A DNA stretch of 64,000 nt from Sulfurimonas xiamenensis (GTDB taxonomy: Bacteria; Campylobacterota; Campylobacteria; Campylobacterales; Sulfurimonadaceae): assembly GCF_009258045.1 (NCBI RefSeq), contig NZ_CP041166.1:496001-560000 (forward strand), written 5' to 3'. A program made the position numbers and the translations under genes. The number at the start of each line of letters is the position of its first letter. The stretch's first letter is position 1. Below, one piece after another: positions 35,581-44,292 of the stretch. The notes under the pieces were generated by a model that was not told the DNA's origin, did not search any database, and was given only the letters and a program-made list of their open reading frames with translations.

Positions 35581-38142
35581 ATGAGCGAAGCAAAAACAAT
35601 TTATCTAAAAGATTATAAAGCACCGGAGTTTACTGTAAAAACATGCGATTTGGTTTTTGAACTCTTTGAAGAGTATACGCAGGTTACAAATCTTATGCAG
35701 ATTGTAAAAATGGATAAAAGTGCTAAAGACTTGGTGTTAGACAGTGTTGAATTAGAATTGGTCGAGATTCATTTAAATGATGTAAAACTTGAAGAGGAGA
35801 GATATGTTGTTGAAAAAGAGAGTTTAAGAGTTTTAGATGTGGAAGATGAGTTTAAACTTATCATTATTAATAAAATTTATCCGCATCGAAACAGTGAACT
35901 TGAAGGACTCTATAAATCTGGCAACATTTTTTGTACACAAAATGAACCTGAGGGCTTTAGAAGAATAACTCCTTATATAGATCGCCCTGATGTAATGGCG
36001 GTGTTTAAAACTACGCTGGTGGCTTCAAGAGAAAAGTATCCGGTACTTCTTAGCAACGGAAATACTGAATCAAACTTTAAACTTGATGACGGAAGACATG
36101 GCGTTACATGGAGTGATCCATATCCAAAACCCTCCTATCTTTTTGCTTTGGTAGCAGGAGATTTGGGTGTTGTAAAAGATAAGTATATTACTGCAAGCGG
36201 GAAATATGTAAGATTAAATATTTACACTGACAAAGGGAATGAATCCAAATGCAAACATGCTATGAAATCTTTAAAAGAAGCGATGCAGTGGGATGAAGAA
36301 AAATATGGCAGAGAGTATGATTTGAGCCTTTACAATATTGTTGCGGTTGATAGTTTCAATATGGGAGCAATGGAGAACAAAGGACTTAATATTTTTAACT
36401 CTGCTTATGTTTTAGCGGATGAAGATACGGCTACTGATGCCAACTTTATGGGTATTCAAAGTGTTATTGCGCATGAGTATTTTCACAACTGGACGGGAAA
36501 TAGAATTACATGCAGGGATTGGTTCCAATTAACTCTAAAAGAGGGGCTTACAGTATTTCGCGACCAATGCTTTTCTGCAGATTTAAACTCAAAAGAGGTG
36601 CAGCGCATAGAGGATGTAAAAGCTCTTAGAGAGCGACAGTTTGTTGAGGATAACTCTCCGATGGCGCATCCGATTCAGCCTGATTCTTACATGGCGATAA
36701 ATAACTTTTATACGGCAACTGTATATGAAAAGGGCGCTGAGGTTATCCGCATGCTGCATACTCTTTTAGGAGAGCAAAAATACCGTAAAGCAATGGATCT
36801 CTATTTTGATACATTTGATGCTCAGGCTGTACGCACAGATGATTTTTTATGGGCGATGAGTAAAGCCGGCGAGATGAATCTCGAACAGTTTAAGAGATGG
36901 TACCATCAGTCAGGCACGCCAAAGTTGGATGTAGATGAAAAATTTGAAGACGGTACTTATACTCTTACTCTTATACAGAAAATACCTCATGCAGTAGATG
37001 GCAGTGAGCAGAAACCACACTTTTTTCCTTTAAAGATTGGACTTTTGGATGAGAGCGGAAAAGAGATTTTAGAAAAAACGCTTCTTATCTCAAAAGAGAA
37101 AGAGGAGTTTCTATTTAAAACCTCTTTTAAGCCCGTTTTGTCTATAAATAGAGACTTCTCTGCCCCTATTATTATTGATCAAAAAGAGACTCATTATGGA
37201 TTTTTGATGAAGCATGATACAAATAGTTTTGCCAAGTATGAAGCAGCGCAATTGTTTGGTATCCAAATTATAGAATCTCTTATGCAAGGCAATGATATAA
37301 ATGATGAGTATGTAAGAGCTTATGGGCATATTTTAGAGAGTGATTTAGATATTTCTTATAAAGCTCTGTTGCTTGAGCTCCCAAGTATATCTGCGCTGAT
37401 GCAGAGACAAAATGTTGTTGATTTTGAACTTATTTATGATGCGATAGAGAAGCTTCAAAAACATTTGGCGTCACTTTATAAAGAGAAACTTTTAGAGATA
37501 TATAGTAAATTTCATAATCCTTTATGCGTAGATCTTGATGCAAATAGCATAGGGAGCAGAAGTATAAAAAATCGTTGTTTAAAACTTCTCTCGTCACTAA
37601 AGAGTAATGAAATGGCAGTGATGGCAAATGAGCAGTACAGCAATTCACTAACTATGACAGACAAAGTTGCAGCACTTGATATTTTAGAAAATATATCGTC
37701 TGAGTATTCTGCTGTTGCATTTAAGCATTTTCACGACAAATATAGACAAAATACACTTGTTATGAATAAATATTTCTCTCTTTTAGCGGCTTCTCATAGA
37801 GAGGGTACCTTAGAGCGTGTAATCGCGCTTCAAAAGGATGCGGCATACAATGAACTTGTGCCAAACTTGGTTCGCTCTCTTGTTGGAACATTTACTCGAA
37901 ACTATAAATATTTTCATGCAAAAGATGGAAGCGGATATAAATTTGTAGCAGATAAAATTATAGATATAGATAAAATAAATCCGCAGATGGCTTCATCTCT
38001 TGCCGGAGCATTTAAAATCTATAAAAAATTAAATGTTCAAAACAAAAAAATGATGAAAGTAGAGTTAGAGCGTGTAGTTTCTACACACTCTCTTTCAAAA
38101 AATGTTTATGAAATTGTAAGTAAAATTATAAAAAATCAATAA
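35581..38142 (+). CDS. pepN: Aminopeptidase N
   Basis: The 853-aa M1 zinc aminopeptidase has the exopeptidase signature GAMENKGLNIF and zinc site HEYFHNWTGNR (His298, His302) with Glu321 eighteen residues later. The C-terminal helical DUF3458-type domains are present. It removes N-terminal residues from peptides in the cytosol. Length and order match E. coli PepN. Confidence 0.97.
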   Translation: MSEAKTIYLKDYKAPEFTVKTCDLVFELFEEYTQVTNLMQIVKMDKSAKDLVLDSVELELVEIHLNDVKLEEERYVVEKESLRVLDVEDEFKLIIINKIYPHRNSELEGLYKSGNIFCTQNEPEGFRRITPYIDRPDVMAVFKTTLVASREKYPVLLSNGNTESNFKLDDGRHGVTWSDPYPKPSYLFALVAGDLGVVKDKYITASGKYVRLNIYTDKGNESKCKHAMKSLKEAMQWDEEKYGREYDLSLYNIVAVDSFNMGAMENKGLNIFNSAYVLADEDTATDANFMGIQSVIAHEYFHNWTGNRITCRDWFQLTLKEGLTVFRDQCFSADLNSKEVQRIEDVKALRERQFVEDNSPMAHPIQPDSYMAINNFYTATVYEKGAEVIRMLHTLLGEQKYRKAMDLYFDTFDAQAVRTDDFLWAMSKAGEMNLEQFKRWYHQSGTPKLDVDEKFEDGTYTLTLIQKIPHAVDGSEQKPHFFPLKIGLLDESGKEILEKTLLISKEKEEFLFKTSFKPVLSINRDFSAPIIIDQKETHYGFLMKHDTNSFAKYEAAQLFGIQIIESLMQGNDINDEYVRAYGHILESDLDISYKALLLELPSISALMQRQNVVDFELIYDAIEKLQKHLASLYKEKLLEIYSKFHNPLCVDLDANSIGSRSIKNRCLKLLSSLKSNEMAVMANEQYSNSLTMTDKVAALDILENISSEYSAVAFKHFHDKYRQNTLVMNKYFSLLAASHREGTLERVIALQKDAAYNELVPNLVRSLVGTFTRNYKYFHAKDGSGYKFVADKIIDIDKINPQMASSLAGAFKIYKKLNVQNKKMMKVELERVVSTHSLSKNVYEIVSKIIKNQ

Positions 38143-38305: not shown

Positions 38306-39775
38306 ATGGCAAGATTAGTTGTTCTTGGTGGAGGTATTTCTGGTCATACGGCTGCGACTTTCGCAGCAAAATGGTTAGGATCATCTCATGAAGTAGTTGT
38401 TGTTACTCCAAATTCAAAATGGAACTGGATTCCTTCAAATATTTGGGTAGGTGTTGGTGAAATGAAAAAAGAGGAGGTCACTTTTGAATTGGCTCCTATT
38501 TATGCAAAAGCCGGTATTAATTATAAACAAGCAAAGGCCGTCTCTATTAATCCAGAGGGTGATGAATCAAATAACAAGCCTTTTGTTACTATTGAGTATA
38601 CGCTTGATGGGCGTGAAGGTGAAGTTGAGAATGTAGAGTATGATTATTTGATCAATGCTACAGGTCCAAAGCTCAATTTTGGTGCAACTCCGGGGCTTGG
38701 AGATGCTAACGGGTTGGGTGAATTTACCGTCTCTGTTTGTACAGCGGATCATGCAACACATGCAAATGAAGAGTTTCAAAAATGCATAGAGAAGATGAAA
38801 AAAGGTGAGCGTCAAAAGTTTTTAATCGGTACCGGACATGGTCTGTGTACTTGCCAAGGTGCTGCATTTGAATATATTTTTAATATTGAACATGAGTTAA
38901 ATAAAGCCGGTGTTCGTGATATGGCTGATTTAACATGGATTTCAAATGAATCATTCCTTGGTGATTTCGGTGTCGGCGGATTACATATGAAGAGTATGGG
39001 ATATGCAGTTAGTTCAAAAATTTTCGCTGAGTCACTTTTTACAGAGAGAAATATTGATTGGCTAATTGGTGCTCATGTAAATAAGGTGGAAAAAGGAAAA
39101 GTACACTATGAGCTGCTTGACGGTTCTATGGGAGAAGAGGAGTTTGACTTTTCAATGTTGATTCCTCCGTTTGCGGGTGTTGGTCTTAAAGCTTACGGCA
39201 AAGACGGTTCAGATATTACAAATACAGTTTTTGCTCCAAACGGTTTTATGAAAGTTGATGCTAATTATAATGCAGGTGCTTATGAAAACTGGAAAGCAAG
39301 TGATTGGCCGAAAACCTACCAAAATCCTACATATAACAATATGTTTGCCTGCGGTATAGCATTTGCGCCTCCGCACCCTATCTCTAAACCTATGAGTTCT
39401 CCAAATGGAACACCTATTAATCCTACACCTCCTCGTACGGGTATGCCATCTGGTATTATAGGCAAAGCAGTGGCGCGCAGTATCTGCGATAAAATATTAA
39501 AAGGTGAAAATGCACCTTTACATGAGATTTCTATGGCTCATATGGGTGCTGCTTGTGTCGCATCTGCAGGAAAAGGTCTTTTTGACGGAACTGCTGCTGC
39601 AATGACAATTTATCCTGTTGTTCCTGATTTTGAAAAATATCCGGGAACTGGTCGCGATACGGATTATACTTTTGGCGAGATTGGTCTTGCTGGTCACTGG
39701 ATTAAACATATCCTTCATCATGTGTTTATTTGGAAGGCTAAGTTAAAAACCGGCTGGACGATGATCCCAGAATAA
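38306..39775 (+). CDS. sqr: Sulfide:quinone oxidoreductase
   Basis: The 489-aa flavoprotein oxidises sulfide to sulfur or polysulfide and passes electrons to quinone. It has an N-terminal FAD motif VVLGGGISGHTAATFAA, SKWNWIPSNIWVGVGEM, conserved cysteines in SVCTADHATH and GHGLCTCQGAAFEY, and the IPPFAGVG segment. It is longer than type I enzymes (~430 aa), so it belongs to one of the other SQR classes; which one needs a tree. It is a marker of sulfur metabolism. A 54-aa ORF with a strong RBS follows at 30 bp. Confidence 0.9.
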   Translation: MARLVVLGGGISGHTAATFAAKWLGSSHEVVVVTPNSKWNWIPSNIWVGVGEMKKEEVTFELAPIYAKAGINYKQAKAVSINPEGDESNNKPFVTIEYTLDGREGEVENVEYDYLINATGPKLNFGATPGLGDANGLGEFTVSVCTADHATHANEEFQKCIEKMKKGERQKFLIGTGHGLCTCQGAAFEYIFNIEHELNKAGVRDMADLTWISNESFLGDFGVGGLHMKSMGYAVSSKIFAESLFTERNIDWLIGAHVNKVEKGKVHYELLDGSMGEEEFDFSMLIPPFAGVGLKAYGKDGSDITNTVFAPNGFMKVDANYNAGAYENWKASDWPKTYQNPTYNNMFACGIAFAPPHPISKPMSSPNGTPINPTPPRTGMPSGIIGKAVARSICDKILKGENAPLHEISMAHMGAACVASAGKGLFDGTAAAMTIYPVVPDFEKYPGTGRDTDYTFGEIGLAGHWIKHILHHVFIWKAKLKTGWTMIPE

Positions 39776-39804: not shown

Positions 39805-39969
39805 ATGCAAAAAAAAGCAGAACACAATATTAAAGCGTATGACAAAAATTTTACAACTATGACTCCCGGTCCGTTTGCCGTCAAGTTAAGAACATGTAAA
39901 ATTTGGCAATTGATAAGATTTATTGTTATAAATCTAAAAATGTTAGTGGTAGTAAACAAAAGCCACTAA
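39805..39969 (+). CDS. Small protein downstream of sqr
   Basis: ATG 39805 is preceded by AAAGGAGA at ideal spacing. The 54-aa product (KAYDKNFTTMTPGPFAVKL, then a hydrophobic WQLIRFIVINLKMLVVV segment) has one possible membrane helix. It ends 15 bp before a strong terminator shared with sqr, so they form one transcript. No family is recognised; it might anchor SQR at the membrane. Confidence 0.65.
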   Translation: MQKKAEHNIKAYDKNFTTMTPGPFAVKLRTCKIWQLIRFIVINLKMLVVVNKSH

Positions 39970-39983
39970 ATTTATAATTTTTA

Positions 39984-40016
39984 AGACCTTAGAATATAAA
40001 TCTAAGGTCTTTATTT
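39984..40016 (+). terminator. Terminator of the sqr transcript
   Basis: AGACCTTAGA-atataaa-TCTAAGGTCT is a 10-bp perfect stem followed by TTATTTATT. It lies directly after the small ORF. Confidence 0.85.
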
Positions 40017-40059: not shown

Positions 40060-40869
40060 ATGATTAAAGAGATAATTACTTACCCAACTCCGCCGAGTGT
40101 TCAATACGCAACGGATGTTAGAGTTTTTAATGAAGAGATTTTTTCTTTAATCGAGGATATAAAAGATACAATTGAGGCAAACTCTTTAGAGGCTCTTGCC
40201 GCTTTTCAAATAGGCAGTTATTATAATATAGTAGTTGTTAAAAAAAGTAATGAGAAAGATTTTTTAGAGTTAATAAATCCAAGAATAATAAGCAATAGCG
40301 GCAAAGTAACTACTACAGAAACAACAGCTTATTTTCCGGGATTAAGTGCAGAAGTTACAAGATATGAAAAGATAAGCATTGTATATCAAGATAGAGAGGG
40401 GAAGCAACACTCTTTAAAAGCTGAGGGGGATCTTAGTATTTTGCTTCAAAGAAAGATTGATTATACTTTTGGTTCAAGTTTTTTAAATAAACTCTCAAAA
40501 GATGAAAAAAAAGTATTTCAAAAAAAGCTAGAATTTGGAAGTGATATCGCTATCTCAGAGAGTTGCCCGACAACATTTAAGAGAGATTTTATAATTAAGA
40601 TTATAAATATAGTAATGATTGCAATGGCAGTTTTGCTTACTGGTTCATTGTTTGTAAACGAGGAAATTTCTCAACAACTTTGGCAATATCAGACTTATCT
40701 CTTTTCTAGTGCGATAGTGCTTAATGTAATATATTTTTTCTATGCCCAATATGAAGGTAGAAAATTCACATCTTGTACTAGCTGCCAAATAGGAAATATA
40801 ATCGGAACTACCGTGATATCTTTAATTAAGCTCTTTGTAATTATACTATTGTCTTATTTTATAATGTAA
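40060..40869 (+). CDS. Peptide deformylase-like protein lacking metal ligands, fused to membrane domain
   Basis: Residues 1-155 follow the peptide deformylase fold: SLEALAAFQIG (45-52, motif I GLAAPQIG), PRIISNSGKV, AYFPGLS (motif II, EGCLS, with Cys replaced by Gly94) and SILLQRKIDYTFGSSFLNKLS (motif III QHExDHLxGxLFIDRLS, with H-E-H replaced by Arg131, Lys132, Tyr135). All three metal ligands are gone, so it cannot deformylate. The C-terminal part (about 175-269) has three membrane helices and a CTSCQ motif. It lies 15 bp before a hybrid histidine kinase and is likely its partner; a sensor or peptide-binding role is inference. Confidence 0.8.
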   Translation: MIKEIITYPTPPSVQYATDVRVFNEEIFSLIEDIKDTIEANSLEALAAFQIGSYYNIVVVKKSNEKDFLELINPRIISNSGKVTTTETTAYFPGLSAEVTRYEKISIVYQDREGKQHSLKAEGDLSILLQRKIDYTFGSSFLNKLSKDEKKVFQKKLEFGSDIAISESCPTTFKRDFIIKIINIVMIAMAVLLTGSLFVNEEISQQLWQYQTYLFSSAIVLNVIYFFYAQYEGRKFTSCTSCQIGNIIGTTVISLIKLFVIILLSYFIM

Positions 40870-40884
40870 AGAAAGTAATAGTTT

Positions 40885-43542
40885 ATGAAAAAAAAAGTAC
40901 CGATTCTTATAAAAAATAGAGATATTTTTATATCTTCAAAAGAGAGTATTCTGCATCAATGGGCGTCATATATTTCTGTCAAAAAAATATTAAAAATTCA
41001 TGATATAGAAGTAGAACAGTTTGTAAATGATTATGGTAAAGGCGTATTTGACTATTTTATGGGTGTAATATCCAGTGAATTTGAGATAGGCGATTGTCCT
41101 ACGATGCATAACTTTTTAGATTTTTTAAAAGATAAAGATGTCAGAGCAGATGAGCTTTTTGATATATGCAGCCATTTTAGAAAATCAATGATTGATTTTT
41201 CATATGATTCTAATTTAAATTCAAAAATGCTCTTTGATGAAATATCTTTTATGTTCGATGAAAATTTTAAAGGGGTTTTAAAATACTACACAGATACAGT
41301 TTTTCAAAAAGAGCAAGAGATAGATCGGCATGTTAAACTTTTAAGTGAATATCAAAAAGCATTAGATGAGAGTGCTATTATTTCAAAAACGGATAAAGAT
41401 GGCAATATAACTTATGTAAATGATAAATTTGTCCAACTAAGCGGATATAGCGCACAGGAGCTTATCGGCAGTAAATATAGTATTTTCAAACATGAAGATA
41501 TGCCCCAAGAGTATTTTGAAGATTTATGGTTTCAGTTAGAAAATGCGGGTATTTTTAGAGGAACTATTAAAAATAATAAAAAAAACGGAGACTATTTTTA
41601 TGTAGATGTAACAATTGTAAAAATAGTGGATGCCTATGATGATTCTGTTGAGTATATATCTATTGCGAACGATGTAACAAAACTAATCGATGCAAGACTT
41701 GAAGCTCAAAGAGCTTCTCAAGCAAAAGAGTATTTTTTATCCAATATGTCACATGAGATAAGAACACCGCTTAATGCAATTTTAGGTTTTGTAAATCTTT
41801 TAATAGAACAAGATACTTCAAAACAGCATAGAAAATATTTGGAAATTATTTTAAACAGCGGAGAAAATTTACTTAGCATTATTAATGATATTTTAGATTT
41901 TTCAAAACTTAGAAGCGGCGAGTTTACTATTGAACCAAAAGTATTTTCAATTCATAATGAAATCAGCCATACATTAGAACTTTTTGTAGCCTCTGCAAAT
42001 TCTAAAGATATTACTATTACATCTTTTATAGATCCAAATATACCCAAAGAGTTATATGCCGATTCACTAAGAATTAAACAAATTTTATCTAATTTTTTAA
42101 GCAATGCTATAAAATTTACTCCGGTAGGGGGTTACATAAATATTGAAGCTACATGTAAAGATAAGATATTAAAAGTAAGTGTTAGCGACAATGGAATCGG
42201 CATAAATAAAGATGATATCAATCATATCTTTTCAGCTTTTACTCAAGCCGGACAGGGAGAGATAGAAAAGTTGCATGGAACCGGATTGGGATTGTCTATT
42301 TGTCATCAGCTCTCAGAGCATATGGGGGGAAGTGTTCATGTAAAATCCGAAATAGGACACGGGAGTACATTTTGGGTTGAGATTCCTGTTGAAATTCATA
42401 ATAATGAGTGCCAAATTTTCACTGATATGCATGAATTGAAAAAATTAAAAACAGTGTTTTATTCAAAAAATGCTATAAAAAATTATAAAATAGATTCATT
42501 TTTTAAATATGCTAAAGTATTTAATCTTGATATAGATATTGTTGATAATCTTGACACAGAGTATGATATAGCAATACTTTTGGATGAGCATATCGATGAT
42601 AAACTAAAAAAAACTATGCTAAACTCAGATAAAAAATTTATAATTCTTGAAAGCAGACCAAGTGATAAATATGAAAAATATGCACATATAATATGCGTGT
42701 GTTTTCCTCTTTATTGTTCAAAAATCAAAGCTGCTTTTAATGAATTGCTTAATCCATATTTACTATATTCTCCTCATAAAAATAGCAATAACTTAAATTT
42801 CCAAGGACATATTTTAATAGCCGAAGACAATGAAGCAAATCAGGAATTAATTAAAATTCTCTTAAACAAATATGGACTTACTTATGATTTGGCAACTAAT
42901 GGCTTAGAGGCAGTAAATCTTTACAAAAAAAATAATTATGATCTTATTTTAATGGATGAACAGATGCCGGTGATGGATGGCAATAAAGCTGTTCAAGAGA
43001 TTATAAAATATGAAAAAGAGAAGGGGCTTAGACACACGCCTGTATCTGCTTTAACGGCAAATGTTATTAAAGGGGCAAAAGAGCGTGGCTTATTGAGTGG
43101 GTTTGATTCATTTTTAGGAAAACCTATTGTGATGAAGGATCTAGAGAGAGTATTTTTTAATTATCTAAAAGTCACTAAAGAAGATGACACTAATTTAAAA
43201 CAATCTGCTATAAACAGTAAGATAGAAGGATTAAATTATGAAAAATTGAGTCAAGAGCTTATGCTAAATGATGATGAATTAATTATGCTGGTAGAGCTTT
43301 TTTTAAAAAAAATGTCAAAGCAAATTCCTGAATTAGAAGCAGCAATTAAATCAAAAGATTATAAAAAGATAGCTCTTATTGCTCATAGTATAAAAGGTTC
43401 AAGTGGCAATTTTAGGCTTGAAGAGATACAGGAGCAGAGCGAGAAAATAGAAAAAATGGCTAAAGCTAAAGATAAAAAATATGATTATGAAAGTGCATTT
43501 GAAAAAATAAAAAGCAGATTAGCGAAAATAAAAATATTTTAA
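40885..43542 (+). CDS. Hybrid sensor histidine kinase with PAS, receiver and Hpt domains
   Basis: The 885-aa protein has no membrane helix. Domains in order: a helical N-terminal segment (1-150), PAS (about 160-275, KDGNITYVNDKFVQLSGYS), DHp with His290 in FLSNMSHEIRTPLNAILGF, ATPase (about 390-505; VSDNGIGINKDD, GTGLGLSI), receiver (about 640-760; Asp in DLILMDEQMPVMDG) and Hpt (about 785-885; His in IALIAHSIKGSSGN). It is a cytosolic phosphorelay kinase. It is co-transcribed with the deformylase-like gene and runs end to end with a response regulator on the other strand. Confidence 0.93.
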   Translation: MKKKVPILIKNRDIFISSKESILHQWASYISVKKILKIHDIEVEQFVNDYGKGVFDYFMGVISSEFEIGDCPTMHNFLDFLKDKDVRADELFDICSHFRKSMIDFSYDSNLNSKMLFDEISFMFDENFKGVLKYYTDTVFQKEQEIDRHVKLLSEYQKALDESAIISKTDKDGNITYVNDKFVQLSGYSAQELIGSKYSIFKHEDMPQEYFEDLWFQLENAGIFRGTIKNNKKNGDYFYVDVTIVKIVDAYDDSVEYISIANDVTKLIDARLEAQRASQAKEYFLSNMSHEIRTPLNAILGFVNLLIEQDTSKQHRKYLEIILNSGENLLSIINDILDFSKLRSGEFTIEPKVFSIHNEISHTLELFVASANSKDITITSFIDPNIPKELYADSLRIKQILSNFLSNAIKFTPVGGYINIEATCKDKILKVSVSDNGIGINKDDINHIFSAFTQAGQGEIEKLHGTGLGLSICHQLSEHMGGSVHVKSEIGHGSTFWVEIPVEIHNNECQIFTDMHELKKLKTVFYSKNAIKNYKIDSFFKYAKVFNLDIDIVDNLDTEYDIAILLDEHIDDKLKKTMLNSDKKFIILESRPSDKYEKYAHIICVCFPLYCSKIKAAFNELLNPYLLYSPHKNSNNLNFQGHILIAEDNEANQELIKILLNKYGLTYDLATNGLEAVNLYKKNNYDLILMDEQMPVMDGNKAVQEIIKYEKEKGLRHTPVSALTANVIKGAKERGLLSGFDSFLGKPIVMKDLERVFFNYLKVTKEDDTNLKQSAINSKIEGLNYEKLSQELMLNDDELIMLVELFLKKMSKQIPELEAAIKSKDYKKIALIAHSIKGSSGNFRLEEIQEQSEKIEKMAKAKDKKYDYESAFEKIKSRLAKIKIF

Positions 43543-44292
43543 TTATTTTTCAATATAGTAACCAATTCCAGAGGCATTTTTTATAATGTCTGTCGGAAGT
43601 TTGTTTCTAAGCCGCCAAACAAGTGTTCTGATACTGTTTTCTGTTGCTCCGCGTTCTTTCCAAACATAATCAATAGCTTGGTCAAAACTAATAATATGTC
43701 CAATTTTTGCAACAAGAAGTCTTAGTATTGCACTCTCTTTTTTTGTAAGTTTGATTTTTTCATTATTGTAAAATATATGATTTTTAGAAATATCTATAGA
43801 GTAACCGTTTCCAAAATTAACAATAGGTTTATCTGATTCTCTTTTTGAGTAGAGCAGTTTTTCTATGTTTTGTTCATTTATTTTATTGGCATCAATCTCT
43901 TCAAATCTTTTGTTTTCCATATTAAATTTAAAAATTGCCATCTGTATTGTTGCATGGAGAGAAGATGGATCAAAAGGTTTTACTATATAGCCATAAGGCT
44001 CCGTTTTAATTGCTTCAGATATTATCTCATCATCGCTGTAAGATGTCAAATATATAAAAGGAATTGTGTAAGACTCTTTTATTGTTTTAGCAAGTCTAAT
44101 TCCATCATCACCCTCTTGAAGAGAGATATCAATAATAATTACATCAGGCTTATATTTGTCTATCTTTTCTTTTGCTTGAACTGCATCACTACACACTGCA
44201 ATAACATCATAGTCATGTTTCAATAAAGATAATTTCAGATTCAGTGCTGTAATTTCATCATCTTCAACAATAATAATAGAATTTCTTTTCAT
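43543..44292 (-). CDS. Response regulator with winged-helix output
   Basis: The 249-aa protein has a receiver domain (phosphoacceptor Asp in DVIIIDISLQEGDDG, Lys in YIVKPFDPS) and a C-terminal winged-helix domain (SIRTLVWRLRNKLP, GIGYYIEK). It converges with the hybrid kinase with no gap between the stops and is its likely target, by position. Confidence 0.9.
   Translation of the reverse strand: MKRNSIIIVEDDEITALNLKLSLLKHDYDVIAVCSDAVQAKEKIDKYKPDVIIIDISLQEGDDGIRLAKTIKESYTIPFIYLTSYSDDEIISEAIKTEPYGYIVKPFDPSSLHATIQMAIFKFNMENKRFEEIDANKINEQNIEKLLYSKRESDKPIVNFGNGYSIDISKNHIFYNNEKIKLTKKESAILRLLVAKIGHIISFDQAIDYVWKERGATENSIRTLVWRLRNKLPTDIIKNASGIGYYIEK

Follow-up and report, generated by a model that had tools for sequence, protein, structure and literature searches.

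What does a peptide deformylase (PDF) do once its active site is gone, and to which of its neighbours does it then belong? The question is raised by a 269-residue open reading frame (ORF) of Sulfurimonas xiamenensis (1.92-Mb genome, single contig NZ_CP041166.1), found in a 64,000-nucleotide stretch covering positions 496,001 to 560,000 of the forward strand, hereafter the window. The protein combines a PDF fold with a membrane domain and is encoded between a flavoprotein gene of the sulfide:quinone reductase (SQR) family and a hybrid histidine kinase gene. An initial annotation had proposed that the deformylase fold was reused as a ligand or formyl-peptide sensor feeding the kinase. Here we report that this pseudo-deformylase is a real and unusual protein whose steadiest association is with sulfide oxidation rather than with the kinase.

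The degenerate deformylase domain and its membrane extension

The predicted parts of the protein map to the window as follows:

40060..40869, plus strand: pseudo-deformylase with membrane domain, 269 residues (ORF, Pfam and model)
40060..40545, plus strand: PDF-fold domain, residues 1-162 (VIA-align Z 21.9 to 2ew5)
40324..40326, plus strand: Thr89 codon, at the metal-Cys position (alignment of 59 members)
40450..40464, plus strand: Arg131-Lys132-Ile133-Asp134-Tyr135, replacing HEIDH (alignment of 59 members)
40552..40866, plus strand: three-helix membrane domain, with Cys169 ahead of the first helix and Cys239/Cys242 in a CTSC motif (model and alignment)

The N-terminal domain is identified as a PDF by Pfam profile PF01327 (E 7.5e-34 over residues 2-150, 117 bits against a cut-off of 22.8), and its nearest solved relative by sequence is the Helicobacter pylori enzyme 2ew5 (E 3.9e-17). 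Residues 1-160 of an AlphaFold2 model of the protein superpose on the latter with a Z of 21.9 and a root-mean-square deviation (rmsd) of 2.5 over 159 residues, so that the retained fold proposed in the initial annotation is borne out by profile and by structure prediction alike, the predicted fold being that of a deformylase. The domain falls short of the TIGR00079 equivalog cut-off (79.9 versus 103.95 bits). The same genome encodes a second, intact PDF (locus L001) with the canonical EGCLS and HEIDH motifs, which means that deformylation itself is provided for.

Relative to L001, the pseudo-deformylase replaces the metal-binding Cys with Thr89, the first metal-binding His with Arg131, the catalytic Glu with Lys132 and the second metal-binding His with Tyr135, while retaining Gln50 and Glu87. 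Three of the four substitutions named at the outset thus hold; the fourth had been placed at Gly94, a residue that belongs to the FPG following the metal-Cys position. In a scan of genome contigs that listed its best 80 loci, the closest named relatives belong to Sulfurimonas. Of 80 loci collected for comparison, five were excluded as too short or for an odd start, and 67 of the remaining 75 were kept after thinning. In an alignment of 59 members drawn from six Campylobacterota families, the metal-Cys position is occupied by Thr (40), Ser (14), Asp (4) or Asn (1) and never by Cys; the first-His position by Arg (52), Gln (5), Val (1) or His (1); the catalytic-Glu position by Lys (49), Gln (6), Met (3) or His (1) and never by Glu; and the second-His position by Tyr (44), Phe (7), Met (6) or Ile (2) and never by His. 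Gln50 is kept in 56 of the 59, and Glu87 and Asp134 in all. No member carries the Cys/His/His ligand set or the HExxH glutamate of an active enzyme, and the domain appears to be dead in every member examined. Apart from the single retained first His, these losses run through all 59 members and six families; they are thus long-standing and fixed, and no chance event at one locus. Purifying selection nevertheless acts on the inactivated domain, with nonsynonymous-to-synonymous rate ratios (dN/dS) of 0.04-0.12 in ten pairs, the synonymous term being saturated in several. In a tree rooted on one active PDF as outgroup, the copies of a single family (f8) split from all others.

The membrane part is modelled as three helices spanning residues 175-196, 201-235 and 240-268, in agreement with the three fused membrane helices reported earlier; two of them exceed 1.6 in a Kyte-Doolittle scan and the middle one is placed by the model together with the alignment. 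Its cysteines are strongly conserved: the CxxC between the second and third helix (Cys239/Cys242) is present in 59 of 59 members and Cys169, ahead of the first helix, in 56 of 59. A few charges point weakly to a cytoplasmic location for both the PDF domain and the CxxC. Among Pfam families none is matched by the membrane domain of the window member, with scattered weak matches in one or two of 23 members; the results of fold searches were filled by PDFs, so the membrane part was barely probed by them. Searched alone against 397 Campylobacterota genomes, the membrane domain found a match in 82, and in all listed cases but one it is fused to a PDF, leaving aside contig-end fragments (G430, G039) and marginal matches with E above 5e-4 (G244, G299).

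Genomic partners of the pseudo-deformylase

The remainder of the locus comprises the following features:

38306..39775, plus strand: SQR-family flavoprotein, 489 residues (phmmer to Aquifex SQR 3hyv), the constant genomic partner of the pseudo-deformylase
39805..39969, plus strand: 54-residue microprotein with the motif MRTCxIWQxIRFIxINIKM..KSH (gap ORFs and profile)
39983..40011, plus strand: terminator-like hairpin of 11 pairs between microprotein and pseudo-deformylase (pattern scan, weak)
40885..43542, plus strand: hybrid histidine kinase with globin-like N-terminal domain, PAS, HisKA, HATPase, REC and Hpt (Pfam; N-terminal domain by model)
40885..41313, plus strand: kinase N-terminal domain, predicted globin-like, with two invariant cysteines (model)
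43543..44292, minus strand: OmpR-type response regulator, convergent with the kinase (Pfam Response_reg and Trans_reg_C)
35581..38142, plus strand: aminopeptidase N (TIGR02414), upstream neighbour

The upstream flavoprotein is predicted to be a sulfide:quinone reductase. Its best solved relatives are SQRs, including that of Aquifex (3hyv, phmmer E 6.7e-40), and its Cys145, Cys183 and Cys417 align with the cysteines of the solved SQRs and are kept in 53, 56 and 53 of 56 rows, respectively; we take these three to be the redox cysteines of 3hyv. As to SQR type (I-VI), the NCBIfam match is weak (36 bits versus 525). At loci L053, L054, L056, L057, L058 and L071, additional flavoproteins (389-477 residues) from the same broad cluster lie close to SQR.

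Across the 397 genomes, an SQR is present in 111 and a pseudo-deformylase, scored as present from 200 bits upwards, in 79, and every one of these 79 also encodes the SQR (Fisher p 1.4e-57, a value without correction for kinship among genomes). The two genes are separated by 206-574 bp in 71 of the 79; in five of the other eight they lie on different contigs, and in three, all of one genus, 7.4 kb apart. The association spans six Campylobacterota families, and outside the window family, the Sulfurimonadaceae, SQR precedes the pseudo-deformylase at 19 of 19 loci, a count that includes L190, recovered by a separate search after ORF picking had missed it. Aminopeptidase N, by contrast, is syntenic in the window family only, its label not being seen at the loci of the other families.

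The interval between SQR and pseudo-deformylase is itself coding. ORFs of 53-76 residues with the motif RTCxIWQxIRFIxINIKM...KSH or a near variant occupy 47 of 48 such gaps, and a profile detects this microprotein at 69 of 81 loci, the 12 others being 11 that lack SQR beside the pseudo-deformylase and L055. In the window it had escaped an ORF list with a 90-residue cut-off and formed no part of the initial annotation. Twenty SQR loci were also fetched from the 32 genomes with SQR and no pseudo-deformylase, and the profile finds the microprotein in all 20 (the motif pattern alone in 10, the other ten having been recognised by eye). Neither Pfam nor NCBIfam yielded a family for it. It extends beyond the Campylobacterota, to the neighbourhood of alpha- and gammaproteobacterial SQRs: on plasmids of Thiodictyon and Marivivens, SQRs of 63 and 61% identity are followed by a similar-looking 52-residue hypothetical protein. 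Because the microprotein tracks SQR with or without the pseudo-deformylase, we regard SQR and microprotein as the core pair and the pseudo-deformylase as an added third gene; the microprotein is possibly an unrecognised SQR subunit. The sole stand-alone version of the membrane domain, a 98-residue three-helix frame with CxxC in genome G400 (L211, E 3.4e-6), sits directly 3' of an SQR and microprotein.

On its 3' side, the pseudo-deformylase ORF is separated by 15 bp from that of the kinase, a spacing from which we infer that the two may be co-transcribed. The kinase matches HisKA, HATPase_c, receiver and Hpt above the Pfam cut-offs, with PAS also matched in the window, and has no hydrophobic segment above 1.6. 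The kinase link proposed earlier is real within the window family, where the same kinase lies within 200 nucleotides 3' of the pseudo-deformylase at 28 of 40 loci and is met by a convergent response regulator at all 28, but does not extend to the other families (0 of 19). The count of 40 omits L055 from 41 loci, since it has no pseudo-deformylase ORF, though tblastn finds the gene; L197, a window-family locus with SQR, kinase and a same-strand regulator, enters neither of the two counts. Moreover, the order SQR-microprotein-kinase-regulator is found where the pseudo-deformylase is missing (L198, L199) and where, in one genus, it is encoded elsewhere (L221, L222). The kinase thus stays 3' of the SQR-microprotein pair when the pseudo-deformylase is missing or has moved, and we conclude that it belongs to the SQR locus; a role as the defining partner of the pseudo-deformylase is not supported.

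The kinase N-terminal domain (residues 1-143; 49 such domains passed and 43 were kept) is matched by no Pfam family. Its model resembles the RsbR N-terminal domain 2bnl with an rmsd of 2.7 over 126 residues and a Z of 12.5, a value in the range possible by chance among helical folds (best Foldseek E 0.076). Every one of 44 rows retains Cys71 and Cys95, and His97, the candidate proximal heme ligand, is near-invariant, with Asn or Gln in L073 and L098.

Nine pseudo-deformylase copies without adjoining SQR form one clade with a support of 1.0. Their neighbour clusters, each labelled from one profiled representative, are MerR-like in 7, AhpD/CMD-like in 6 and DsrE-like in 5 of the 9. On these labels, the surroundings of the derived copies keep a redox and sulfur theme. 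MerR-, AhpD- and DsrE-like neighbours in place of SQR are seen at L037, L039, L043, L064, L048, L069 and L067. Two more SQR-less copies (L051, L070) fall outside the clade. On a plasmid of Sulfurovum mangrovi, the same order recurs as FAD-dependent oxidoreductase, hypothetical protein and peptide deformylase, the last being broken (L218:7001-7813) and entered in the annotation as a pair of genes, both called 'peptide deformylase'. Dissemination on plasmids or phages was considered and rejected, as at least 80% protein coverage is reached in 1 of 906 matching plasmid records and 0 of 21 phage records.

Proposed function and competing explanations

We tentatively favour a reading in which the pseudo-deformylase may be a membrane accessory protein of the SQR-microprotein unit that probably handles or senses sulfane sulfur. 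In its favour count the co-occurrence and adjacency with SQR, the intervening microprotein, the recurrence of the gene order in S. mangrovi, the selection on the PDF domain, the invariant CxxC, the redox and sulfur neighbours of the derived copies and the stand-alone membrane domain of L211. The PDF domain would be cytoplasmic; its old peptide groove, in which Arg131 and Lys132 stand in for the metal, could serve as a docking site for SQR, for the microprotein or for a small anion, and such a charge-filled pocket could bind an acidic group of a partner or an anion. The CxxC at the membrane face would, together with Cys169, accept or sense sulfane sulfur or an SQR-derived redox state, and in the window family the adjoining cytosolic kinase and regulator would report the state of the sulfide locus, with or without the pseudo-deformylase. 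A more specific version, which is possible but doubtful, would make SQR, instead of a lone monotopic enzyme, the centre of a small membrane assembly with the 54-residue protein as a subunit and the pseudo-deformylase as a third component whose CxxC passes on sulfane sulfur or redox state.

Several observations weigh against an SQR accessory role. The pseudo-deformylase is missing from 32 of the 111 SQR genomes, so SQR does not need it, and the nine derived copies have left SQR. The kinase is present at 28 of the 29 SQR-linked loci of the window family (the exception being L059) and is thus almost as tightly linked there as SQR. The terminator-like hairpin of the window stands between microprotein and pseudo-deformylase, although hairpin-type sites number 3 in the region against 2.5 expected in shuffles, which makes it a weak signal. 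Finally, the membrane sidedness of the PDF domain is deduced from a handful of charges.

Among the alternatives, a thiol or persulfide redox switch fares best, if still on the unlikely side: a disulfide or polysulfide bridge involving the CxxC and Cys169 would alter the PDF domain and thereby regulate SQR or, at loci that have it, the kinase. Such a switch is consistent with the near-universal conservation of these cysteines, with sulfur- and peroxide-related genes next to the derived copies and with the two invariant cysteines of the kinase N-terminal domain; the cysteines could equally be metal ligands.

We consider it distinctly unlikely that the pseudo-deformylase is the sensor input of the kinase, with a formyl-peptide or other ligand signalling through the membrane domain. 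The 15-bp gap and the kinase's proximity at 28 of 40 window-family loci, or nearly all of those linked to SQR, speak for such coupling; against it stand the absence of a 3' kinase at all 19 loci of other families, the kinases that persist without an adjoining pseudo-deformylase in L198, L199, L221 and L222, and the kinase's own sensor domains (predicted globin-like N-terminal domain and PAS). Nothing found points to formylated peptides, and we have lowered the formyl-peptide reading of the initial annotation since the kinase follows SQR when the pseudo-deformylase is absent or elsewhere.

An assembly or insertion factor, whose groove would capture nascent microprotein or SQR by its N-terminus, tethering it at the membrane, is likewise improbable: the retained PDF fold with Gln50 and Glu87, and a microprotein adjoining SQR in the loci examined, would suit it, but SQR-microprotein units do without the pseudo-deformylase at all 20 loci fetched for this comparison. 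Lastly, a duplicate in decay that travels with its neighbours, as the loss of all catalytic residues and the broken S. mangrovi copy might suggest, is scarcely credible and is rejected for the family as a whole, given the selection on the PDF domain evident from dN/dS and a reading frame kept open over six families.

Relation to known systems and significance

Compared with bacterial PDFs, namely H. pylori 2ew5 and the organism's own def product (L001), the pseudo-deformylase shares the fold over residues 1-162 together with Gln50, Glu87 and Asp134, and differs in having no metal-binding Cys or His, no catalytic Glu and an added membrane domain. The upstream gene is, like the Aquifex aeolicus SQR 3hyv, a flavoprotein in which the three SQR cysteines are aligned, but it encodes 489 rather than 430 residues and is accompanied by the microprotein, in numerous Campylobacterota also by the pseudo-deformylase. 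Residues 267-879 of the kinase match the BarA-type family NF008318 with an E of 3.5e-108, at a score of 363 bits that stays below the cut-off of 890; the kinase departs from this family in the absence of a hydrophobic segment above 1.6 and in its predicted RsbR/globin-like N-terminal domain. That domain is alike in model to RsbR and the globin-coupled sensors (2bnl), but at a Z within chance range and with a candidate His97 that is not invariant.

The titles of structures 4al2 and 4az4 report Escherichia coli PDF crystallised with hydrosulfide. The hydrosulfide is presumably bound at the metal, in which case the precedent would not apply to a PDF domain devoid of a metal site. In the open-licence literature, we found no paper joining peptide deformylase with histidine kinase and Sulfurimonas, or with Sulfurimonas alone, and nothing under inactive peptide deformylase or peptide deformylase with pseudoenzyme; the one paper that pairs peptide deformylase with sulfide quinone concerns Fe-S clusters. 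The word deformylase is likewise absent from the main text of PMC9938260, which treats SQR. We regard the protein as a PDF-fold pseudoenzyme with a new membrane domain and a new genomic context.

Peptide deformylase acts in protein maturation and is a target of antibiotics, and a selected, conserved version that lacks the metal site and carries a membrane domain represents an unusual reuse of its fold. The sole annotated record seen labels it 'peptide deformylase', a misnomer that may be widespread. If the pseudo-deformylase and the microprotein do belong to SQR, a principal sulfide-oxidising enzyme of Campylobacterota from sulfidic and vent habitats would have partners alongside which, in the open-licence literature searched, it has not been assayed. 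The placement of the gene in sulfur oxidisers, beside a sulfide-oxidising enzyme and the microprotein, suggests that an old protein-maturation fold has been given a new role in sulfide respiration.

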